Source of the DNA: a virus
IMG/VR virus record: IMGVR_UViG_3300008470_000308
Location: 1-22,751 of that record
Strand: one strand, 5' to 3'
Length of the DNA: 22,751 nt
Both the position numbers and the translations under genes were made by a program. A model generated the notes under the pieces. The model was not told the origin of the DNA. It saw only the letters and a program-made list of their open reading frames with translations, and did not search any database. Shown here one piece after another: positions 7,487-19,329 of the stretch; within the stretch, counting starts at the first letter, position 1, and the number at the start of each line of letters is the position of its first letter.

Positions 7487-8481
7487 TGAGCTACGAACTG
7501 AAAACAAATACAGCGGTAAGGTTAGCAGTTGGGCCTTTAGTTGATCCTGGGGATGGGAAAACGGCGGAAACGTCCCTCACCGTTACTGCTCTGCTTGTCC
7601 AGATTTACCGCATTCAGAATGATGGTAATGCGGTTGTCAGGGCAGCATTCAATCCGACAACCGATAGCGGTGATAACGACATGGTGCTGGTTACATCATC
7701 AACTGACGGTATGTACGATTTAGAGATAACTGCCGCTCAGATCAACTGGCTTGGGAACGGACGAATTTCTTTTTATGACGTGGACGGGTTCTTAGTTCAT
7801 TACTTTGATATTCATGTGGTTTCAGCGGCATATTGGAATTGGAAGTACGCAACGACCATACCAGAGGTTAATGTTAAACAGTTATTAGGTACGGCATGGT
7901 TGGCTCCTGGAACAGCTGGAACGCCGGATGTCAATGCAAAACAGCTTGGTGGTACGGCACAAACGGGCAGAGATATTGGAGCGAGTGTTCTTCTTTCTAC
8001 TGGTTCAGGTGCGGGACAGCTTGACTTTACTTCGGGCGTGGTCAAATCCAACCTTGCACAGATACTTGGAACAGCATTGACTGAAACGGCTGGTTATATT
8101 GCGGCTGGATTCAAGAAACTGTTTAATGTTGAAACTCCGGTGCTTGTTGCTTCTGATGTTATGCGAGGAACGGATACTGGCCCCACGAAAGCAGAAATGG
8201 ATACAGCCCATGCACTATTAGCAACCCCGGCAAATGTAAATACACAGGTTCTTGATGTTCTAACCACGGATACATTTGCCGAACCTGGGACAGGCGCACC
8301 ACCCGCAACGGCAAGTATAGAAGAAAAGATAAGCTGGCTGTATGCTTTTCTCCGAAACAAGACACTAACTACTTCTAGTTTACTCACATTGAGAAATGAT
8401 GCGGATAATGCGGATATAGCGAAAGCTACGTTAAGTGATGATACAACCACTTTCAGTAAAGAGGAATTTGTGAGTGGCTAA
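7486..8481 (+). CDS. Multidomain tail/fibre-type structural protein
   Basis: This 331-residue protein opens with an all-beta domain (about residues 1-112). Its layout, AVGPLVDPGDGKTAETSLTV then GMYDLEITAAQINWLGNGRISFYD, is common in phage structural proteins. WNWKY (about 117-121) and low-complexity repeats containing VNVKQLLGTA and VNAKQLGGTA (about 128-160) follow. The C-terminal 75 residues contain EEKISWLYAFLRNKTLTTSSLLTLRNDADN and ATLSDDTTTFSKEEF, a module seen at the ends of fibre-like proteins, with a helix that may trimerise. It overlaps the next gene by 8 bases. A fibre or virion appendage role is likely. Confidence 0.65.
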   Translation: MSYELKTNTAVRLAVGPLVDPGDGKTAETSLTVTALLVQIYRIQNDGNAVVRAAFNPTTDSGDNDMVLVTSSTDGMYDLEITAAQINWLGNGRISFYDVDGFLVHYFDIHVVSAAYWNWKYATTIPEVNVKQLLGTAWLAPGTAGTPDVNAKQLGGTAQTGRDIGASVLLSTGSGAGQLDFTSGVVKSNLAQILGTALTETAGYIAAGFKKLFNVETPVLVASDVMRGTDTGPTKAEMDTAHALLATPANVNTQVLDVLTTDTFAEPGTGAPPATASIEEKISWLYAFLRNKTLTTSSLLTLRNDADNADIAKATLSDDTTTFSKEEFVSG

Positions 8482-9277
8482 CCTCGATTCAGAAAATAAA
8501 CGAAGGGCTGCTTTTAATTTACCGGGATATGTTATCAATCCTGTGGCAGATGGAACGATAGGGGATGCGGACAGAGTACAGGCATCGGGATGGTATAGCG
8601 GGATAGGCATAGGGGGGGCGGTATATGAAAAATCATTATCGGACACAATCAACCTATCCGATGCAATCGCACGGAGCATGGGTATCCCAAAATCTGACAC
8701 CATTAATTTATCAGATGGAATAGTTAAGGGTTTTGGGTTTCCACGGGCCGATTCTGTTTCCCTCTCCGATGCGATTGCAAAAGAATTTGGAGCTGTAAGG
8801 TCGGAGACAGTTACTCTATCAGACGGGGTTGCAAAGGCTCCGAACATAGCAAGATCGGATTCAATTACCTTATCTGATGGGATTGTTAAAACTGTGGGGA
8901 TGCCTAAAAGCGATACGATTACGCTTGCAGACAGTATCGTAAAGGCCATGAGTATAGATAAGGCAGATTCAATCACCTTATCTGATTTGCTTTCAAGGGA
9001 ATTCGGGTTGAATAAGGCCGATACTGTTTCAATGTCCGATGGAATTGCAAAAGGCTTTGGGTTGATCAGGTCTGATACGGTTACTTTGTCTGATTTGCTT
9101 TCAAAAGGTTTTGGTTTGAGCAAGACAGATATAGTTACCTTATCTGACAGTATTGCAAAAGAATTTGGCTTAACTAAATCTGATACGATTACCTTAACAG
9201 ATTCCAACGACATATCAGGAATAGTCGGATTCATAATTGAACAACTTGGACTTCATTCATTACAGAATATATTTTAG
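8474..9277 (+). CDS. Protein built of eleven 18-residue tandem repeats
   Basis: This 267-residue protein starts at GTG 8474 inside the end of the previous gene. Residues 1-54 are a non-repeated head containing RRAAFNLPGYVINPVADGTI, which may anchor it to the virion. Residues 55-234 are ten full 18-residue units with consensus (K/R)SD(T/S)(I/V)TLSDGIAKGFGL, plus half a unit at 235-243. A short hydrophobic tail (ISGIVGFIIEQLGLHSLQNI) follows. Regular SDTITLSD strands alternating with IAKGFG turns suggest a beta-solenoid or fibrous rod. Context argues for an adhesin, fibre shaft or spacer. Units differ enough to be an old array. Function not known from sequence. Confidence 0.75.
   Translation: MANLDSENKRRAAFNLPGYVINPVADGTIGDADRVQASGWYSGIGIGGAVYEKSLSDTINLSDAIARSMGIPKSDTINLSDGIVKGFGFPRADSVSLSDAIAKEFGAVRSETVTLSDGVAKAPNIARSDSITLSDGIVKTVGMPKSDTITLADSIVKAMSIDKADSITLSDLLSREFGLNKADTVSMSDGIAKGFGLIRSDTVTLSDLLSKGFGLSKTDIVTLSDSIAKEFGLTKSDTITLTDSNDISGIVGFIIEQLGLHSLQNIF
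8636..9202 (+). repeat. 54-bp coding tandem repeat array, ten units plus a partial one
   Basis: The unit is 18 codons. Units begin at 8636 and every 54 bases up to 9122, with a partial unit from 9176. Units are degenerate at DNA level, and best conserved in the segment for SD(T/S)(I/V)TLSD. Copies 9 and 10 and copies 7 and 8 look closest to one another. The array is wholly inside the repeat-protein gene. Confidence 0.85.
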
Positions 9278-12738: not shown

Positions 12739-13034
12739 TGAATGAAGAGAGAGTTGACGAAATATGTGACCGATGCAAGGAACCAATTAATATCTTGGTA
12801 TCAGAATTTGAACGGGCAATGAAGGCCGGAGAACCGATTTTATGCCCTGATTGTTATTCTGAATATCTCGACGAAGAAACAGAGGAGTTACCACCGAATC
12901 GGTGCTTTGAATATAAGATAGAGGAGCTGGGCGGAATACAGCATCTTGCAGTATTAAATAAGGCCGGTTCAGAAGGATGGGAGCTTGTGTCAGTGGATGA
13001 TGGAAAAGCATACTTTAAGAGGAATAATCTATGA
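12738..13034 (+). CDS. Zinc-ribbon protein with C-terminal DUF4177-like domain
   Basis: In this 98-residue protein the first half has Cys10-x-x-Cys13 and Cys36-x-x-Cys39, a treble-clef or zinc-ribbon arrangement. Residues 57-95 (FEYKIEELGGIQHLAVLNKA, GSEGWELVSVDDGKAYFKR) match the short DUF4177 fold with the hallmark GWELVS. The combination in one chain is unusual. It is coupled to the tail terminator (TAATG) and to the glycosyltransferase-methyltransferase gene (ATGA). A role in that block is possible but not shown. Confidence 0.65.
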   Translation: MNEERVDEICDRCKEPINILVSEFERAMKAGEPILCPDCYSEYLDEETEELPPNRCFEYKIEELGGIQHLAVLNKAGSEGWELVSVDDGKAYFKRNNL

Positions 13035-14398
13035 TTTCTATAATAATCCCCGCCCTGAATCAGCTTGAAATGACGATGGGGTGCATGGAGGCAGTCGAAA
13101 AGACCACGGAGGACTACGAAATAATCATTGTTGACAATGGATCAAAGCCAGCCTTTGACAGCGTTCCATTCACGCCAAACGATAATGAGATACGCATTAT
13201 CCGGAATGAAGAAAACCTTGGTTTCCCAGTAGCAGTTAATCAGGGTATCAAAGCGGCAAAAGGGGACATTATTGTAATTATGAACAATGATGTGGTTTGT
13301 ACCCCTAACTGGCTTGAGACATTGCAAGGGCGGCTATCTGACGGGCTTGATATGGTAGGACCTGTCACTAATTCGATCTCCGGGCCCCAACAGGTATTGA
13401 TTGATAGTTACGACGATTTAACGGGCCTATATAAAGCCGCTGAAGACCATAAAAAGAAAAACGAGGGGCAATGGTCTCCTTTTCACAGGCTGGTTTTCTA
13501 CTGCGTGGCGATAAAAAGAGAAGTCATAGATAAGATCGGATTGCTTGACGAGATTTACACGCCGGGGAATTATGAGGATGACGATTACTGTATGAGGGCG
13601 ATTGATGCAGGTTTCAAATTAGGAGTTGCAAAAGATTGTTATGTTCATCATTTTGGGAGCGTAACACATAAGGCTATGGATATCGATTACAGGGAATTGC
13701 TTGCAAAAAATCAAAAGATATTCAACGAAAAATCGGCTGATAGATATAAGGAAATGATAAAGAAAAACAACCAGGATGGTAATGAGATTATTTTTACCGG
13801 TGAGCGGGCCATGCCTTTGGATTCCGGGACACCCCCTGATGTCATGGAAGAGCATTGGGCACGATATAAATATGCTATTCAGTTTGTGAAAGATAAGAAG
13901 GTTTTGGATGTGGCATGTGGGGCAGGATATGGAGCTGACCTGCTTTCTGAAACAGCCGAATCCGTAATAGGCGGGGATATCTCTCCCGAAACAATTGCTT
14001 ATTGTAGATTGCATTATCCGAACCCCGGCTTTTTCGTGTTTGATATTTGCGACATTCCATATCTTGAAAATTCATACGACATAATTGTTAGCTTTGAAAC
14101 TATCGAACATATTAAGGACGGGAGGTTGTTTCTCTCCGAGATTGTGCGGGTACTGAAAGAAGACGGGAAATTGATTATTTCTTGTCCTCTCGGCGGAAAC
14201 TGTGGCAACCCATATCATCTAATATATTACCAGAAGGGAACCTTTGAGCTTGTCTTGAAGAAATACTTTGATGGGGTAAAAATGCTCTACCAGAGAAAGG
14301 GGGAGTTTTTCGAGGATAGCATATCCCCTGAATATCACGAAACTTTTACAGGTGAATATGCGATGGCAATTTGCAGCAAACCAAAGGAGGTATCATGA
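13031..14398 (+). CDS. Glycosyltransferase family 2 fused to SAM-dependent methyltransferase
   Basis: This 455-residue bifunctional enzyme starts with a GT-A domain, about residues 1-240: SIIIPALNQ, IIIVDNGS (nucleotide site), NLGFPVAVNQGIKAAKGDII, NND at 85-87 as the metal-binding DxD equivalent, ED(D) at 183-185 as likely catalytic base, and HHFGSVT. After a lysine-rich linker (235-250), residues 285-400 form a class I methyltransferase: KVLDVACGAGYGADLL (motif I), GGDISPETIAYC, FDICDIPYLENSYDIIVSFETIEHI (motifs II/III) and a VLKEDGKLIISC strand. It would transfer a nucleotide sugar and methylate a sugar or partner substrate. Substrates cannot be read. Lying between terminator and tube genes, it may modify the virion. 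Confidence 0.88.
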   Translation: MISIIIPALNQLEMTMGCMEAVEKTTEDYEIIIVDNGSKPAFDSVPFTPNDNEIRIIRNEENLGFPVAVNQGIKAAKGDIIVIMNNDVVCTPNWLETLQGRLSDGLDMVGPVTNSISGPQQVLIDSYDDLTGLYKAAEDHKKKNEGQWSPFHRLVFYCVAIKREVIDKIGLLDEIYTPGNYEDDDYCMRAIDAGFKLGVAKDCYVHHFGSVTHKAMDIDYRELLAKNQKIFNEKSADRYKEMIKKNNQDGNEIIFTGERAMPLDSGTPPDVMEEHWARYKYAIQFVKDKKVLDVACGAGYGADLLSETAESVIGGDISPETIAYCRLHYPNPGFFVFDICDIPYLENSYDIIVSFETIEHIKDGRLFLSEIVRVLKEDGKLIISCPLGGNCGNPYHLIYYQKGTFELVLKKYFDGVKMLYQRKGEFFEDSISPEYHETFTGEYAMAICSKPKEVS

Positions 14399-14577
14399 AA
14401 ATAGAACTTTCAAAAGCAACCTATATCGAAACCGATGAATTGTCGGACAAAGAACTATCTCATTCTCACGCTTATTACTATCAGCTCGGGCGGAAAGATG
14501 TAGCCTTGGAATTAATAGAAGAAAAAGAAAAAAGACAAGCGAGACCGAAAGGAAAAAAGGAGACTGCGGGTGCTTAA
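14395..14577 (+). CDS. Small charged helical protein
   Basis: This 60-residue protein starts at ATG 14395 with AAAGGAGG upstream and overlaps the previous stop. It is highly charged: an acidic N-half (ETDELSDKELSHSHAYYYQL) and a Lys/Arg/Glu-rich C-terminus. It is probably a single helix hairpin. It sits between the two glycosyltransferase genes and overlaps the second by 8 bases. Family not recognised. Confidence 0.5.
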   Translation: MKIELSKATYIETDELSDKELSHSHAYYYQLGRKDVALELIEEKEKRQARPKGKKETAGA

Positions 14578-15223
14578 AATCACTAATAAAAAGTTGGCGA
14601 TTGGTTTTTGCTGCTCATGGCCGTTTGTTCCTTTCCCCTTTGTTCGTTCATTTGTCATGATGGAGCGACCGGACTTCACGCCTATCTTTGCAACTAACGG
14701 GCCGATTGATGGATTGAGAAGTAGCGTTGTTTCCCAAGCTAAAGCTATGGGGGCTTCTCATTTGCTTATGCCTGATCTTGACCAGACATATCCAGTGGAT
14801 ACAATACCAAAACTTTTGGCTCATAACCTTCCGATTGTCGGGGCAATGGTGCATAGACGTTATCCCCCGTTTGACCCATTAATGCTGAAGGGCGATATTA
14901 ATTCTTATACGCCTGTGGAAGATTGGGAAGATGGGGAATTGGTGGAAGTTGATGCAACTGGGTCTGGGTGCATACTGTATGACATGAAAGTGTTTCATGA
15001 CATGCCGGGGCCATGGTTTAAGTTTAGACCGAATCCAGACCCCGACCGTGAAGGAATAGTAGGGGAAGACATAGGGTTTTGTTCTGATTTGAGAAGGGCG
15101 GGATATCGGATCTATGTTGATACATCGATAAAGTGCGGCCACTTGTCCACAATGGAAGTAACACAAGAGACACATTGGCTTTACAAATCATTAAAAAAGA
15201 AACAACAGAAGACGGAGGTGTAA
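14570..15223 (+). CDS. Second glycosyltransferase, GT-A type, phage family
   Basis: This 217-residue protein starts at GTG 14570 with AAAAGGAG eight bases upstream. Features: an N-terminal strand (LAIGFCCSWPFVPFPFV), a region (DGLRSSVVSQAKAMGASHLL) followed by PDLDQTYP with Asp69-x-Asp71 as the DxD metal site, IVGAMVHRRYPP, GSGCILYDMKVF, and GEDIGFCSDLRRAGYRIYVD with a late histidine (CGHLS, His191). This ordered set is common in phage-encoded GT-A proteins. It is unrelated in detail to the upstream GT2 domain, so the pair could build a two-sugar or alternate decoration. Target unknown. It ends two bases before the first tail tube gene, coupling it to virion expression. Confidence 0.8.
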   Translation: MLKITNKKLAIGFCCSWPFVPFPFVRSFVMMERPDFTPIFATNGPIDGLRSSVVSQAKAMGASHLLMPDLDQTYPVDTIPKLLAHNLPIVGAMVHRRYPPFDPLMLKGDINSYTPVEDWEDGELVEVDATGSGCILYDMKVFHDMPGPWFKFRPNPDPDREGIVGEDIGFCSDLRRAGYRIYVDTSIKCGHLSTMEVTQETHWLYKSLKKKQQKTEV

Positions 15224-15711
15224 AATGTCAACCAAATCAGGAAGAATAGCAGGCGTTAAACTGGGAGCAACAGCAATCGCAGGTCAGGGTACGTGGTCCT
15301 TCGGGGGGTTCACCCGTGAGATAATTGAGGAAGATTCTTGGGATATCGATATCAAGAAGAAATACTTTGGTGTGGGTGATGCAGGAACGTTGTCATTTTC
15401 GGGTCTTTACGATGCCCAGGCTACCACGTTTACTACTGGACAGAATGCTATCAATTCGGCGTGTATTAACTCCTCAGCCTTTGAGGGCGGGAATGTTTCT
15501 ACAGCCACATTAAACTTCTTTATTGATAACACATCTTACTGGACTGCGACTACCGGTGGAGAGATTCTCATCACAAAATGCCAAGCTATTACTATGGATA
15601 AATCAGGGATGGGAACCATTGACTTTGAGGCAGTTATTTCCGGTGGCGTAATGATACTTATATAAAATCTAATGGAGGTGTAAAATGTCAACCAAATCAG
15701 GAAGAATAGCA
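15214..15711 (+). repeat. Direct repeats between the two tail tube genes, offset 460 bp
   Basis: A 38-base block at 15214-15251, covering SD, start and first codons, recurs exactly at 15674-15711. A second 40-base block at 15322-15361 recurs exactly at 15782-15821. Both have the same 460-base offset, so they mark one tandem duplication. Sequence between and after these blocks has diverged. Confidence 0.9.
15225..15665 (+). CDS. Major tail tube protein, copy A
   Basis: This 146-residue protein is likely a tail tube subunit of the siphophage type. It has the pattern GQGTWSFGGFTREIIEEDSWDI, GDAGTLSFSGLYDAQ, FIDNTSYW, ILITKCQAITMDKSGMGTIDFEA and an ending in GG-V-M-I-L. The start, with GGAGGTG nine bases upstream, is identical to that of copy B. 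Copy A differs from copy B in the loop after FSGLYD, where it has an added Thr-rich stretch. Two tube-type proteins in tandem may mean one forms the tube and the other a decorated or terminal ring. Confidence 0.8.
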   Translation: MSTKSGRIAGVKLGATAIAGQGTWSFGGFTREIIEEDSWDIDIKKKYFGVGDAGTLSFSGLYDAQATTFTTGQNAINSACINSSAFEGGNVSTATLNFFIDNTSYWTATTGGEILITKCQAITMDKSGMGTIDFEAVISGGVMILI

Positions 15712-16101
15712 AGCGTTTATCTTGGGGCTGCAAAAGTCGCAGGTCAGGGCACGTGGACCCTCGGGGGTTTTACCCGTGAAGTAATTGAGGAAGATTCTTG
15801 GGATATCGATATCAAGAAGAAGCATTTCAGCGTGGGTGATGCGGGGACATTGACTTTTTCAGGTCTTTACGATCCTGACGATGATGATGGGCAGACATTA
15901 TTGAACTCTGCATGTAACAATTCATCGGTGCTTATAAGTAATGTATTGAAGTTATACATTGATGCTGCATCATATTGGACTAACACGACAGGACACAGCA
16001 TCCTCATCACGAAATCTCAGAGTGTCATGATGGAAAAATCCGCAATGGGAACGATTGACTTTGAAGGAGTAGTGAGTGCAGGAGCGATGGTGCTTGTATA
16101 A
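15685..16101 (+). CDS. Major tail tube protein, copy B
   Basis: This 138-residue paralogue of the preceding gene has the same ordered motifs: GQGTWTLGGFTREVIEEDSW, DAGTLTFSGLYDPDDDDGQT, LYIDAASYW, ILITKSQSVMMEKSAMGTIDFEG, ending GAMVLV. The DNA around the start and around codons 33-46 is identical to copy A while the rest has diverged. That pattern suggests gene conversion or selection on those segments. The acidic DPDDDDGQ loop differs from copy A. Its position immediately before the assembly chaperones suggests it may be the main tube protein. Confidence 0.82.
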   Translation: MSTKSGRIASVYLGAAKVAGQGTWTLGGFTREVIEEDSWDIDIKKKHFSVGDAGTLTFSGLYDPDDDDGQTLLNSACNNSSVLISNVLKLYIDAASYWTNTTGHSILITKSQSVMMEKSAMGTIDFEGVVSAGAMVLV

Positions 16102-16113
16102 AAAGGAGGTTTT

Positions 16114-16521
16114 ATGACAGTTTTAAATCTTGAAGAAAAAGATGGTGCATGGTTTGAGATGGACGGCGGGGGAAGAGTTGAACTTAGAACTCTCTCATAT
16201 GATGCCTTGAAAACAATCAACAAGAAAAGCATTCGGAAAAAAGTTGATTTTAAAAAGGTCGAAGGAACTCCAGGGCGATTTGAATATGAAGAAGTCAACG
16301 AAGACCTCCAGAACGAATTGTTCTGGGATCACTGTATCGTAGCATGGGAGAATCTTTTTGATGCGAAAGAAAAGGAAATCCCTTGCACAACTGAAAACAA
16401 GGTTTTGTTGATGTCCAGGTCTGCACAGTTTTCAAGGTTCGTTTCGGATTCACTTCAAACTCTCTCAGAAGACGAAGTAGATCAAGACAAGGTAATTGAA
16501 AAAAACTCCGAGACATCATAG
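16114..16521 (+). CDS. Tail assembly chaperone G (short, zero-frame product)
   Basis: This 135-residue protein corresponds in position and design to lambda gpG. It is made in large amounts to bind the tape measure and help the tube assemble, and is not in the final virion. It is mostly charged and helical: LEEKDGAWFEMDGGGRVELR, then KTINKKSIRKKVDFKKVEG, then NELFWDHCIVAWENLFDAKE. Start ATG 16114 has AAAGGAGG upstream. Near its 3' end lies the slippery heptamer A AAA AAC. Ribosomes that do not slip stop at TAG 16519-16521. Confidence 0.82.
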   Translation: MTVLNLEEKDGAWFEMDGGGRVELRTLSYDALKTINKKSIRKKVDFKKVEGTPGRFEYEEVNEDLQNELFWDHCIVAWENLFDAKEKEIPCTTENKVLLMSRSAQFSRFVSDSLQTLSEDEVDQDKVIEKNSETS

Positions 16522-16547
16522 AGTTTAATGAGCTCGGCTCTAAACTT
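16500..16547 (+). promoter_or_regulatory. Programmed -1 ribosomal frameshift signal
   Basis: The slippery heptamer A AAA AAC (16500-16506) lies exactly in register with the G frame. In the -1 frame a TGA at 16497-16499 blocks any earlier entry, and the G frame ends at TAG 16519, so the switch must occur in about 20 bases. Downstream, GAGTTTA (16521-16527) pairs with TAAACTT (16541-16547), and GAGC (16530-16533) pairs with GCTC (16537-16540). This gives an 11-bp hairpin with an AT bulge, 14 bases from the slip site. Confidence 0.85.
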
Positions 16548-16847
16548 GGATTTACGCCAAAGGAATATTGTGATGGATGTAAAGAACTCTATGGTGCACG
16601 GAATCCTCCAGAAGAACCGCCATGCGATACATGCAGGCCAAAATATATAGAAGAAAACGCCGATGCGATTATGATCTTCTACAAAGTGCAAAGGCAATTC
16701 ATAATGGGATTTGACGGGCCGATTGACATATCCCACGAGGCGATACACAGAGAGATGGAACTTTATAACATAAGCGATAAACAAAGTTGTTTCGATAAGG
16801 TTTTAATAATGTCTCAAAGCTTTATCAACAGGATGAGGGAAAAATGA
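16506..16847 (+). CDS. T extension of the G-T tail chaperone, reached only by -1 frameshift
   Basis: Read in the -1 frame, this gives 113 residues after the slip site, making a G-T fusion of 244 residues. It opens with LRDIIEFNELGSKLGFTPKE and carries Cys22-x-x-Cys25 and Cys40-x-x-Cys43, a likely zinc ribbon. A helical region with IFYKVQRQFIMGF, ISHEAIHREMELYNI and LIMSQSFINRMREK follows. It has no believable start of its own in this frame. The end overlaps the next gene's ATG (ATGA). By analogy with lambda gpGT, the T part recruits tube subunits while G coats the tape measure. Confidence 0.85.
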   Translation, partial: LRDIIEFNELGSKLGFTPKEYCDGCKELYGARNPPEEPPCDTCRPKYIEENADAIMIFYKVQRQFIMGFDGPIDISHEAIHREMELYNISDKQSCFDKVLIMSQSFINRMREK

Positions 16848-17263
16848 GTCGAGTAGCTTTCTGGAATCCGAAGATAGCTGAAAAGGAAATTATGGGTAAT
16901 GCTATGGATCGTCTCATAGCCGCCGGTGAAGCCGTTGCTGAAAAGGCACGATCATTGTGCAAAGTTGGTACTATCTCAAGGCCGATGTATTCTAAAGGAA
17001 GATACGCGGGTCAATACTGGACAGCTAGGGATGCAGGGGCTTTAAAAAAGACTATCAGAGTTGTTACAAAGCATGGTGGAACCGGGCGCAATGTGTGGGT
17101 TATGGCTGGGACGAAAAAAGTTTACTACGCTCAGATCGTTGAATTTTATACGCCATTTTTAAGACCGGCACTAAACGGTTCAAAGGCTAAGATTAAAAGA
17201 ATTATACAGCAACCGACGATGGCCGGCGGCGGATCGTCTATTGCAATGGGAGGTAAATTCTAA
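16844..17263 (+). CDS. HK97 gp10-like minor tail/neck protein
   Basis: This 139-residue protein has a helical N-terminus (AMDRLIAAGEAVAEKARSL), then GTISRP, YWTARDAGALKKTIRVV, NVWVMAGTKKVYYAQIVEF and TPFLRPALNGSKAKIKRI. The Y-Y-A-x-I-V-E-F then PFLRPAL pattern is the HK97 gp10 signature. Such proteins are normally encoded before the tail terminator in the neck cluster, but here the gene lies after the chaperones, a displaced position. It overlaps the tape measure gene by one base (TAATG). Confidence 0.75.
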   Translation: MSRVAFWNPKIAEKEIMGNAMDRLIAAGEAVAEKARSLCKVGTISRPMYSKGRYAGQYWTARDAGALKKTIRVVTKHGGTGRNVWVMAGTKKVYYAQIVEFYTPFLRPALNGSKAKIKRIIQQPTMAGGGSSIAMGGKF

Positions 17264-18102
17264 TGGCAAAGAAGCCTGTTGGAAAAATCTTTGTCGAACT
17301 TGATCTTGATAAGACCAAGTATGAAGCCGGACTTGGAAAAGTAAAAGGCAAGGGCAAGAAGACCGCAACGGACATCGAAAAAGCTTGGAAGGTCATGGGC
17401 AAGAAGTCAGAGCAAACCTATGACCAAATGCGAGCCAATGTTAATAAGAATTATAATATAATCAAGAATCACGCCAAATCCACAGCCAATGATATTGTCA
17501 GAGCAGAGAGGGCAAAAGCTGCAAAGATCGCACGAATTAACGAGCAACAATTCGGGAAGCAAAAAAAACTAATAGACCAAGCCAAGCAACACTGGATGGC
17601 CTATGCCGCTGCTGTTGCTGGATTCATCATAGTGGGTAAAAAGATTCTCACGCTTTCAATGGAACAGGAGAAAGCACAGTGGGCTTTAAGGGCTGCACTT
17701 GTATCCAATAACGAATATACTAAAGAGACATTAAAAAGCTATACAGACTTTGCTTCTGCAATTCAAAAAGTAACGACCTTTGGCGATGAACAAGTCTTGA
17801 TGCTAATGGCTTTAATGAAAAACCTTGGTGTTCATAAAGACAAGCTAAAACTCGCAGCAGAACAGGCAATCGGTTTAGCTTCCGCAACAGGCAGAGGTGT
17901 AGAATCAATGGCTATGTATATTGCTCTTGCACATCAAGGGGAATTTACAATGCTCCGTAGATACATTCCGGCACTCAAAAAGACAACTGATGCTACTGAA
18001 CAGATGGCAATTATAACAGAGAAGACAGCACAGGGGTTTGTGTTTGCCAAGGAGATGGCCTTGACTTTTGGTGGTAGGCTAAAACAGCTTTCTAACTTGT
18101 AG
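17263..18102 (+). CDS. Tape measure protein, N-terminal part up to an in-frame TAG
   Basis: This 279-residue part of the tail length ruler begins MAKKPVGKIFVELDLDKTKY, a classic tape measure start (beta-strand then coiled coil). Residues 30-115 are highly charged and helical, a hydrophobic span follows at about 110-128 (WMAYAAAVAGFIIVGKKIL), then the typical helical region with FASAIQKVTTFGDEQVL and IGLASATGRGVESMAMYIALAHQGEF. The frame stops at TAG 18100-18102 after GGRLKQLSNL. Reading continues in the same frame with NDLHEGVGDAIVKNEAMVKL, which is how tape measures normally go on. So this is a broken or read-through gene, not a short protein. Confidence 0.85.
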   Translation: MAKKPVGKIFVELDLDKTKYEAGLGKVKGKGKKTATDIEKAWKVMGKKSEQTYDQMRANVNKNYNIIKNHAKSTANDIVRAERAKAAKIARINEQQFGKQKKLIDQAKQHWMAYAAAVAGFIIVGKKILTLSMEQEKAQWALRAALVSNNEYTKETLKSYTDFASAIQKVTTFGDEQVLMLMALMKNLGVHKDKLKLAAEQAIGLASATGRGVESMAMYIALAHQGEFTMLRRYIPALKKTTDATEQMAIITEKTAQGFVFAKEMALTFGGRLKQLSNL

Positions 18103-19329
18103 AATGATTTACATGAGGGGGTCGGTGATGCCATAGTCAAAAATGAAGCTATGGTAAAACTACTTGATGATGGCAAGAAGGTTATAACAGCATGGATTGA
18201 CCAGGTAGAACTATGGGTGAAACTCAATGATGAACTGATTGCTCAAAAAACTCATGAAGCAATAAACAAAATCAAATCATCATTAGAGGCAATTATAAAC
18301 ACATATAAAGCTTTGCCAGATGGTGTTATTGGCGCTGTTGGAACTGGAATACTCTTCAGGGTTTTAACTGGATCAACGCCAGTCGGGCGGGTTGTAACGA
18401 TATTAATGCTGGTCAACACGCAGCTTGAGAAAGCCGGCGTTAATATGAAAAAGATTGCTTCGGCCGCTGAAGTTGCTGTTAGTCCGTTAAGTCTTTTAAG
18501 GGGATTAATTCCCGAATCAGCTAAGCCGTCTTTCTTTCAAGGCGGGGTTCCCGGAACGATATCTGGCGCCGGAAGGGGGTTTCCAGCACTACCACCAAGG
18601 CCCGGAGTTCCAACAATGGCAGAACTGCCTGCTCCAGTCGAAGATCCCTCAGTTTTACGTCATAAAGAAATGGAAGATTTAAAACTTGGATACTTCATGG
18701 AGAATCAAAATTTAATACTTAAGGGTGTGGCTGATTATGAAACTTTAAAACTTCAAAAACAGAGAGATTCGCTTGCAAAAGAAAAGGCCATGCAACAGGC
18801 AAGAGTTGCAATGTACCAATCCGCCGCTGGTTCAATCGCAAATACCTTTCTTCGGATTGCACAAGCCGGAGGAAAGCAAAGTAAAAAGATGTTTGCAGTT
18901 TACAAAGCATTTGCGATGGTTGAGGCTGTCATTGCAGGGCACAGGGCTATTCTGCAAGCGATGGCGGCATACCCCCCGCCGTGGTCTTTTATCATGGCTG
19001 GGATAGCTGGCGCAGCGGCAGCGGTTCAGATTGCAATGATCTCCGCCGCCAAGCCACCTTCCTATGAAACTGGAACTGATTATGTCCCAGAAACGGGGTT
19101 AGCTTTATTGCATAAAGGGGAGAAGGTCACTCCGGCTGGAAGGAATAAAGGAGAGGGCAACACCTATATCACCGTCAAAATGGAAAATCCAGTCTTTCAG
19201 GATGTCGCAACACAGAGACAGGTTTTTGCACAGATCGCCGAGGTTATCGCTACACGGGTCGCACCCGGGGCAGTGGTTAATGATTATAGAAATGACGGAA
19301 TGACGAGACAGGTAATAGGGAGAGTATAA
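18103..19329 (+). CDS. Tape measure protein, C-terminal part after the in-frame TAG
   Basis: This is the same frame as the N-terminal part. The first Met codon is 18151, but no SD precedes it and NDLHEGVGDAIVKNE just upstream is evidently coding, so separate initiation is unlikely. The region contains charged helices, a proline-rich linker (PALPPRPGVPTMAELPAPVE), coiled-coil sequence (KLQKQRDSLAKEKAMQQARV), a hydrophobic segment (PWSFIMAGIAGAAAAVQIAM) and the typical tape measure ending ETGTDYVPETGLALLHKGEKV. The joined protein would be 688 codons; at the usual 1.5 angstrom per residue that means a tail near 100 nm. No lysozyme or peptidase domain was seen. Confidence 0.82.
   Translation, partial: NDLHEGVGDAIVKNEAMVKLLDDGKKVITAWIDQVELWVKLNDELIAQKTHEAINKIKSSLEAIINTYKALPDGVIGAVGTGILFRVLTGSTPVGRVVTILMLVNTQLEKAGVNMKKIASAAEVAVSPLSLLRGLIPESAKPSFFQGGVPGTISGAGRGFPALPPRPGVPTMAELPAPVEDPSVLRHKEMEDLKLGYFMENQNLILKGVADYETLKLQKQRDSLAKEKAMQQARVAMYQSAAGSIANTFLRIAQAGGKQSKKMFAVYKAFAMVEAVIAGHRAILQAMAAYPPPWSFIMAGIAGAAAAVQIAMISAAKPPSYETGTDYVPETGLALLHKGEKVTPAGRNKGEGNTYITVKMENPVFQDVATQRQVFAQIAEVIATRVAPGAVVNDYRNDGMTRQVIGRV

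Follow-up and report, generated by a model that had tools for sequence, protein, structure and literature searches.

How is the short open frame that overlaps the end of a small tail gene expressed in this viral record, when it has no start codon of its own? The window, which is the whole 22,751-nt stretch of IMGVR_UViG_3300008470_000308, carries on its plus strand a reading frame of 135 amino acids (G, 16114-16521) and, overlapping its 3' end, an open -1 frame (T, 16500-16847). An initial annotation, made from the letters of the window, had proposed that a frameshift joins the two into a G-T tail chaperone. We conclude, with a probability of about 93%, that the locus encodes the G and G-T tail assembly chaperones of a long-tailed phage, and that G-T arises through a -1 slip at the heptamer A AAA AAC.

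The two frames meet at a slippery heptamer. The zero-frame codons at the site are GAA (16498-16500), AAA (16501-16503) and AAC (16504-16506), and A AAA AAC (16500-16506) is therefore in X XXY YYZ phase. A TGA of the -1 frame (16497-16499) lies immediately 5' of the heptamer and bounds T on that side; here the initial annotation was exact to the base, and it also placed the zero-frame stop of G correctly, at TAG 16519-16521. The T frame is open for 115 codons (16500-16844), 113 of them beyond the slip as annotated, and its stop (TGA, 16845-16847) overlaps the start codon of the gene that follows (ATG, 16844-16846). The claim that T lacks a start of its own stands as well. The first Met in the T frame of the window is residue 58, and because this lies beyond all four cysteines of the domain, T has no usable start. 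It is for want of a start that gene callers miss T.

G and T are homologous to phage tail chaperones. G matches phrog_313 ("Tail assembly chaperone") at E 3.5e-12, and 43/47 relatives have a G that does so at E≤0.01. The predicted structure of G (pLDDT 86.1) is close to tape measure and tail chaperones (best named match, E 1.3e-5); among solved structures its top match is HK97 2ob9, which is weak (Z 3.9, rmsd 5.1, 88 aligned). The T of the window matches DUF1799 at E 3e-4 and 21.3 bits, under the Pfam cutoff of 26, and also phrog_680, which is labeled "tape measure" and not chaperone. At E≤0.01, phrog_680 is found in 27/46 and DUF1799 in 20/46 T domains. The predicted T structure (pLDDT 89.7) lies nearest, among viral models, to the "Tape measure chaperone" of phage F20 (E 3.3e-4) and that of phage Solomon (E 3.4e-3). 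A fold search of the PDB with the T model gave nothing significant (best E 1.6), PDB sequence searches with G and T profiles gave no relevant match, and at E≤0.01 the phage collection yielded nothing for the T of L014 or the G of L019 and L066. These matches support the identification of G as a G-type tail assembly chaperone and of the -1 frame as a T-type (DUF1799-like) domain, in agreement with the annotated function.

The G/T pair is placed between genes for the major tail protein and the tape measure. Directly 5' of G is the gene for a tail-tube (major tail) protein (15685-16101), which has a weak match to the phrog_158 major tail protein (E 0.034) and occupies the same place in relatives. 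It is preceded by a gene for a paralogous tail-tube-like protein (15225-15665), which is identical to it in 92/146 aligned columns and has no library match at E≤1. After T, one HK97-gp10-like tail completion gene (16844-17263; phrog_5, E 2.7e-7) intervenes before the tape measure gene (17263-19329), the 3' part of which matches phrog_1506 at E 1e-11. To judge from how far away their tape measure frame lies, some relatives have an insert at this place and others lack it. All of these genes lie on the plus strand, as do the heptamer, the elements flanking it and the cysteine codons. The tape measure gene contains one in-frame TAG (18100-18102), across which relatives L001 and L002 are uninterrupted; it may be a nonsense mutation, an error or a readthrough site. 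Reassignment of TAG, considered on account of this codon, was rejected: TAG terminates 13 of the 37 listed reading frames in the window, which has no tRNA gene. Rfam and tRNA scans across the window were empty.

Several further genes can be tentatively assigned by eye. Between the head/neck and tail genes lie a putative glycosyltransferase plus methyltransferase (13031-14398) and a second glycosyltransferase-like protein (14570-15223). Farther upstream, 8474-9277 encodes a protein with a repeated SDTITLSDG-type motif, and the antisense frame at 8431-9234 is likewise open, for 267 codons. Homing-endonuclease-like proteins lie beside G or T in some relatives (upstream of G in L037; downstream of T in L013, L027 and L043).

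Relatives of the pair share the site at which the frames meet. We gathered them by protein similarity alone, ignoring the heptamer. After accounting for redundancy between searches (15/50 loci of one search were contigs already found in another), 57 distinct viral contigs were obtained, the window included. In 49/57, A AAA AAC is in phase and T lies in -1; in three more (L020, L035 and L036) the position is taken by A AAT TTA or A AAT TTG. The remaining 5/57 form one near-identical group of weak matches that lack a site of this kind, and T is in +1 in those that can be read; one of these contigs ends before G does. Thus, the heptamer, whose comparison among related phages the initial annotation had put forward as a check, is kept in distant relatives, and so are the cysteines and the -1 relation between the frames. 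Searches of genome contigs with T as query and with the G alignment found no relative, and consequently we assign no host.

Chance does not account for the heptamer. AAAAAAC occurs four times per strand in the window (eight on both), and the first-order Markov expectation is 4.2 per strand, or 1.8e-4 per base. About five in-phase places exist for it in the G/T overlap, which gives a chance of roughly 1e-3. A chance heptamer is excluded because 52/57 distinct contigs join G to T in -1 at an in-phase X XXY YYZ site. Dropping the near-identical L004, L025, L026, L029 and L036 from these 52 loci leaves a non-redundant set of 47, of which 45 carry A AAA AAC. At other positions in the G genes of these 45, AAA accounts for 262/557 Lys codons and AAC for 134/293 Asn codons. 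The frameshift interval had been described as tightly bounded. This is correct, although the bounds are not constant. The zero-frame stop comes four codons past the site in the window, directly after the site in 22/47 loci and one codon later in 12/47.

T domains carry a conserved cysteine motif. In the window, the cysteines are residues 24, 27, 42 and 45 of T, a CxxC-x14-CxxC arrangement at 16569-16634 (codons 16569-16571, 16578-16580, 16623-16625 and 16632-16634). We find CxxC-x(6-25)-CxxC in 41/46 T domains, window included, the count leaving out L017, whose contig ends. Four further T domains have altered spacing, and the T of L027 has no cysteine. The initial annotation had described a C-terminal zinc ribbon as a mark of a real protein. 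The cysteines are indeed present and conserved, but they lie in the N-terminal half of T and are C-terminal only relative to the fusion. Zinc binding is suggested by the paired CxxC motif, and the site is best called putative; zf-C2HC5 matches just 2/46 T domains.

Two elements flank the heptamer across the family. The first is a Shine-Dalgarno-like element, which in relatives lies about 7 nt upstream of the heptamer. A complement to the anti-Shine-Dalgarno of at least 4 nt at -16 to -6 from the site is present in 38/47 loci; the controls are 23% of 5034 in-phase positions and a mean of 29% after permuting the last 20 codons. The position range was picked after the first loci had been inspected, and the 26 later loci serve as a hold-out. 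Their mean match is 4.31, a value reached by 0/5000 permutations. The window has a weak example of the element, AAGG (16489-16492), which is just 4 nt long and lies 7 nt 5' of the heptamer.

The second element is a stem-loop, which begins about 5-8 nt past the heptamer across the family. Folding windows of 60 nt that start 0, 7 and 12 nt from the heptamer have mean z values of -2.00, -1.87 and -1.78, and the same folding at fifteen other offsets gives means of -0.55 to +0.14. In the window, the predicted stem is longer-range, with 13 uninterrupted pairs between 16514-16526 and 16584-16596 after a 7-nt spacer. Its z depends on the folded length (0.05 at 60 nt, -3.08 at 90 nt and -1.53 at 110 nt), six lengths having been tried and the longer span adopted after close relatives pointed to it. 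In the window and L002-L005, 53/55 cells are paired when 11 of the 13 pairs are counted, compared with at most 44% in slid controls. Covariation in the same five sequences is modest: two pairs are changed on both sides, in three double-change cells, and 15/500 shuffles reach the score.

The conserved signal also bears on other ways in which the frames might be fused. RNA polymerase could stutter on the A7 run (16499-16505) and change the A count of the transcript, which would fuse the frames without any ribosomal slip; A runs are slippage sites for polymerases, and the site in the window is a run of seven. Yet L013, L014, L016, L017 and L019 have only six A, and the A AAT TTA/G of L020 and L035/L036 is no homopolymer. 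Moreover, the C that closes the heptamer is kept, as is the codon phase, and the Shine-Dalgarno-like element and stem-loop flank the site at ribosomal spacing. We regard transcriptional slippage as quite improbable. Separate translation of T, by re-initiation or by coupled translation after the G stop, is even less probable. The weak Shine-Dalgarno-like element is close by, but 30/46 T frames, window included, have no ATG, GTG or TTG from the upstream -1 stop to the first cysteine, and separate translation would not explain a strictly kept heptamer. Least credible is a sequencing or assembly indel that splits what is truly one reading frame, or a pseudogene: although homopolymers are error-prone in sequencing and the A run is one, the same break in the same direction and at the same site in 52 distinct contigs (47 non-redundant), with the zero-frame stop 0-1 codons past the site in 34/47 loci, refutes it for the family and answers the worry in the initial annotation that reads might show a different A count.

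We therefore favor ribosomal slippage at A AAA AAC. The majority of ribosomes would translate G and terminate at TAG 16519. If the share resembles that in lambda, a few per cent would slip, with both tRNAs moving back one base on the heptamer; GAA AAA AAC would re-pair one base back, and reading would resume at CTC. Contact of the ribosome with the upstream Shine-Dalgarno-like element, together with the stem-loop starting 7 nt downstream, would aid the slip. Slipped ribosomes would read on through T to yield the G-T fusion. If assembly also proceeds as in lambda, G would coat the tape measure protein, rare G-T copies would bring the tail-tube protein via T, and both would depart as the tube assembles.

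Frameshifted G-T chaperones are already known in many tailed phages. The slippery site of lambda is G_GGA_AAG, whereas here it is A AAA AAC with a Shine-Dalgarno-like element and a stem-loop, and T has a Cys4 motif. As at the present locus, lambda gpG/gpGT comprises G and then a -1 T near the tail-tube and tape-measure genes; in lambda, a low-level -1 slip gives a G to G-T ratio of about 30:1 (PMC5009743, in part). The g-t site of haloarchaeal virus HCTV-2 is likewise A_AAA_AAC (PMC5009743, in part); that virus is archaeal, and the likeness is one of heptamer and gene type. Klebsiella phage Solomon (MT701592, T1-like) has the same gene order, with two tandem tail-tube genes, G, a -1 T and the tape measure gene. 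Its GenBank record annotates a joined "tape measure chaperone frameshift product", with the junction GCA AAA AAC TAA. The T of Solomon has no cysteine and its sequence similarity to the window is marginal (E 0.3-1), although its T fold is among the nearest. Among the papers listed in our searches on tail chaperones, we found neither a cysteine or zinc T domain nor a signal that combines a Shine-Dalgarno element with a stem-loop. What is added here is a family-wide signal, the apparent joint exchange of T and the tail tube gene, and a sister clade with T in +1.

To judge from its sequence, the G/T signal is dnaX-like in layout, and dnaX frameshifts at a high rate. The -1 signal of E. coli dnaX likewise has a Shine-Dalgarno-like element, an A6 heptamer and a downstream hairpin (PMC3711429, in part), but its heptamer is A AAA AAG and it serves a cellular replication gene, whereas A AAA AAC here serves a phage chaperone. 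In E. coli, A AAA AAC is reported to be far less prone to shifting than A AAA AAG (PMC5009743, in part). The lower slipperiness of A AAA AAC may be the reason that the helper elements are kept, or the host may simply be a different one.

G and T appear to have partly separate histories. Compared with the window, the G of L024 is 76% identical and its T just 26%, while in L001 it is T that is closer (60% identical) and G that is more distant (37%). The DNA identity of L002 and L024 is 68-82% through G, falls to about 50% through T and is 73-92% past T. L024 and L035 have in common an altered T and a long protein in the tail-tube position (316 and 297 aa).

We show that T similarity follows that of the major tail protein. 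Given G, the partial correlation between the two is 0.58 (0/2000 permutations; 44 loci). Given T, that between G and the major tail protein is 0.13 (139/2000; 44 loci), despite G being the physical neighbor. The 44 loci exclude L037 and L056, in which the chosen upstream frame is unlike a tail tube protein; with both included, the values are 0.52 and 0.07. Among short-tube loci only, the contrast is smaller (T given G, 0.30, 0/2000; G given T, 0.21, 17/2000). T also follows its downstream neighbor, with values for tape measure similarity of 0.35 for T given G and 0.22 for G given T. In lambda, T is reported to bind the major tail protein (PMC5009743, in part). The co-variation seen here fits a T domain that contacts the tail tube, as the lambda model predicts.

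A different arrangement is found in a sister clade, made up of relatives of the five exceptions. Their T lies in the +1 frame, and G ends with UC(C/G)_UUU_CGN, in phase, in 12/12 loci displayed (10 distinct site contexts). The loci read at the ends of G are L066 (3316-3324), L075, L076, L077, L079, L081, L083, L085, L087-L089, L093 and L094. TTT makes up just 16-54% of Phe codons in sister-clade loci, despite UUU at every displayed site. The motif resembles that of influenza A PA-X, where +1 slippage occurs on UCC_UUU_CGU (PMC3498833, in part), and UUU_Ynn is prone to +1 shifts in bacteria (PMC5009743, in part). A +1 frameshift at UC(C/G)_UUU_CGN is thus a candidate mechanism for this clade, and we offer it as a lead.

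We give slightly better than even odds to a broader proposal, in which G and T would be separately exchangeable cassettes joined at a recoding site. T would be an adaptor that needs to match the tail-tube protein and moves with the tube gene across G. The direction of the joint would also have changed in evolution, between the -1 clade (A AAA AAC with Shine-Dalgarno-like element and stem-loop) and its sister, which has a G of the same type but a +1 joint (UC(C/G)_UUU_CGN, a site of the PA-X type).

The locus supplies the full chaperone for a large group of uncultivated phages, together with a compact three-part frameshift signal. Because tube type is more closely associated with T than with G, the relatives make it testable whether T decides which tail tube is recruited. 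If true, the switch between -1 and +1 within one chaperone family would offer a natural setting in which to compare two recoding routes that lead to one protein ratio.
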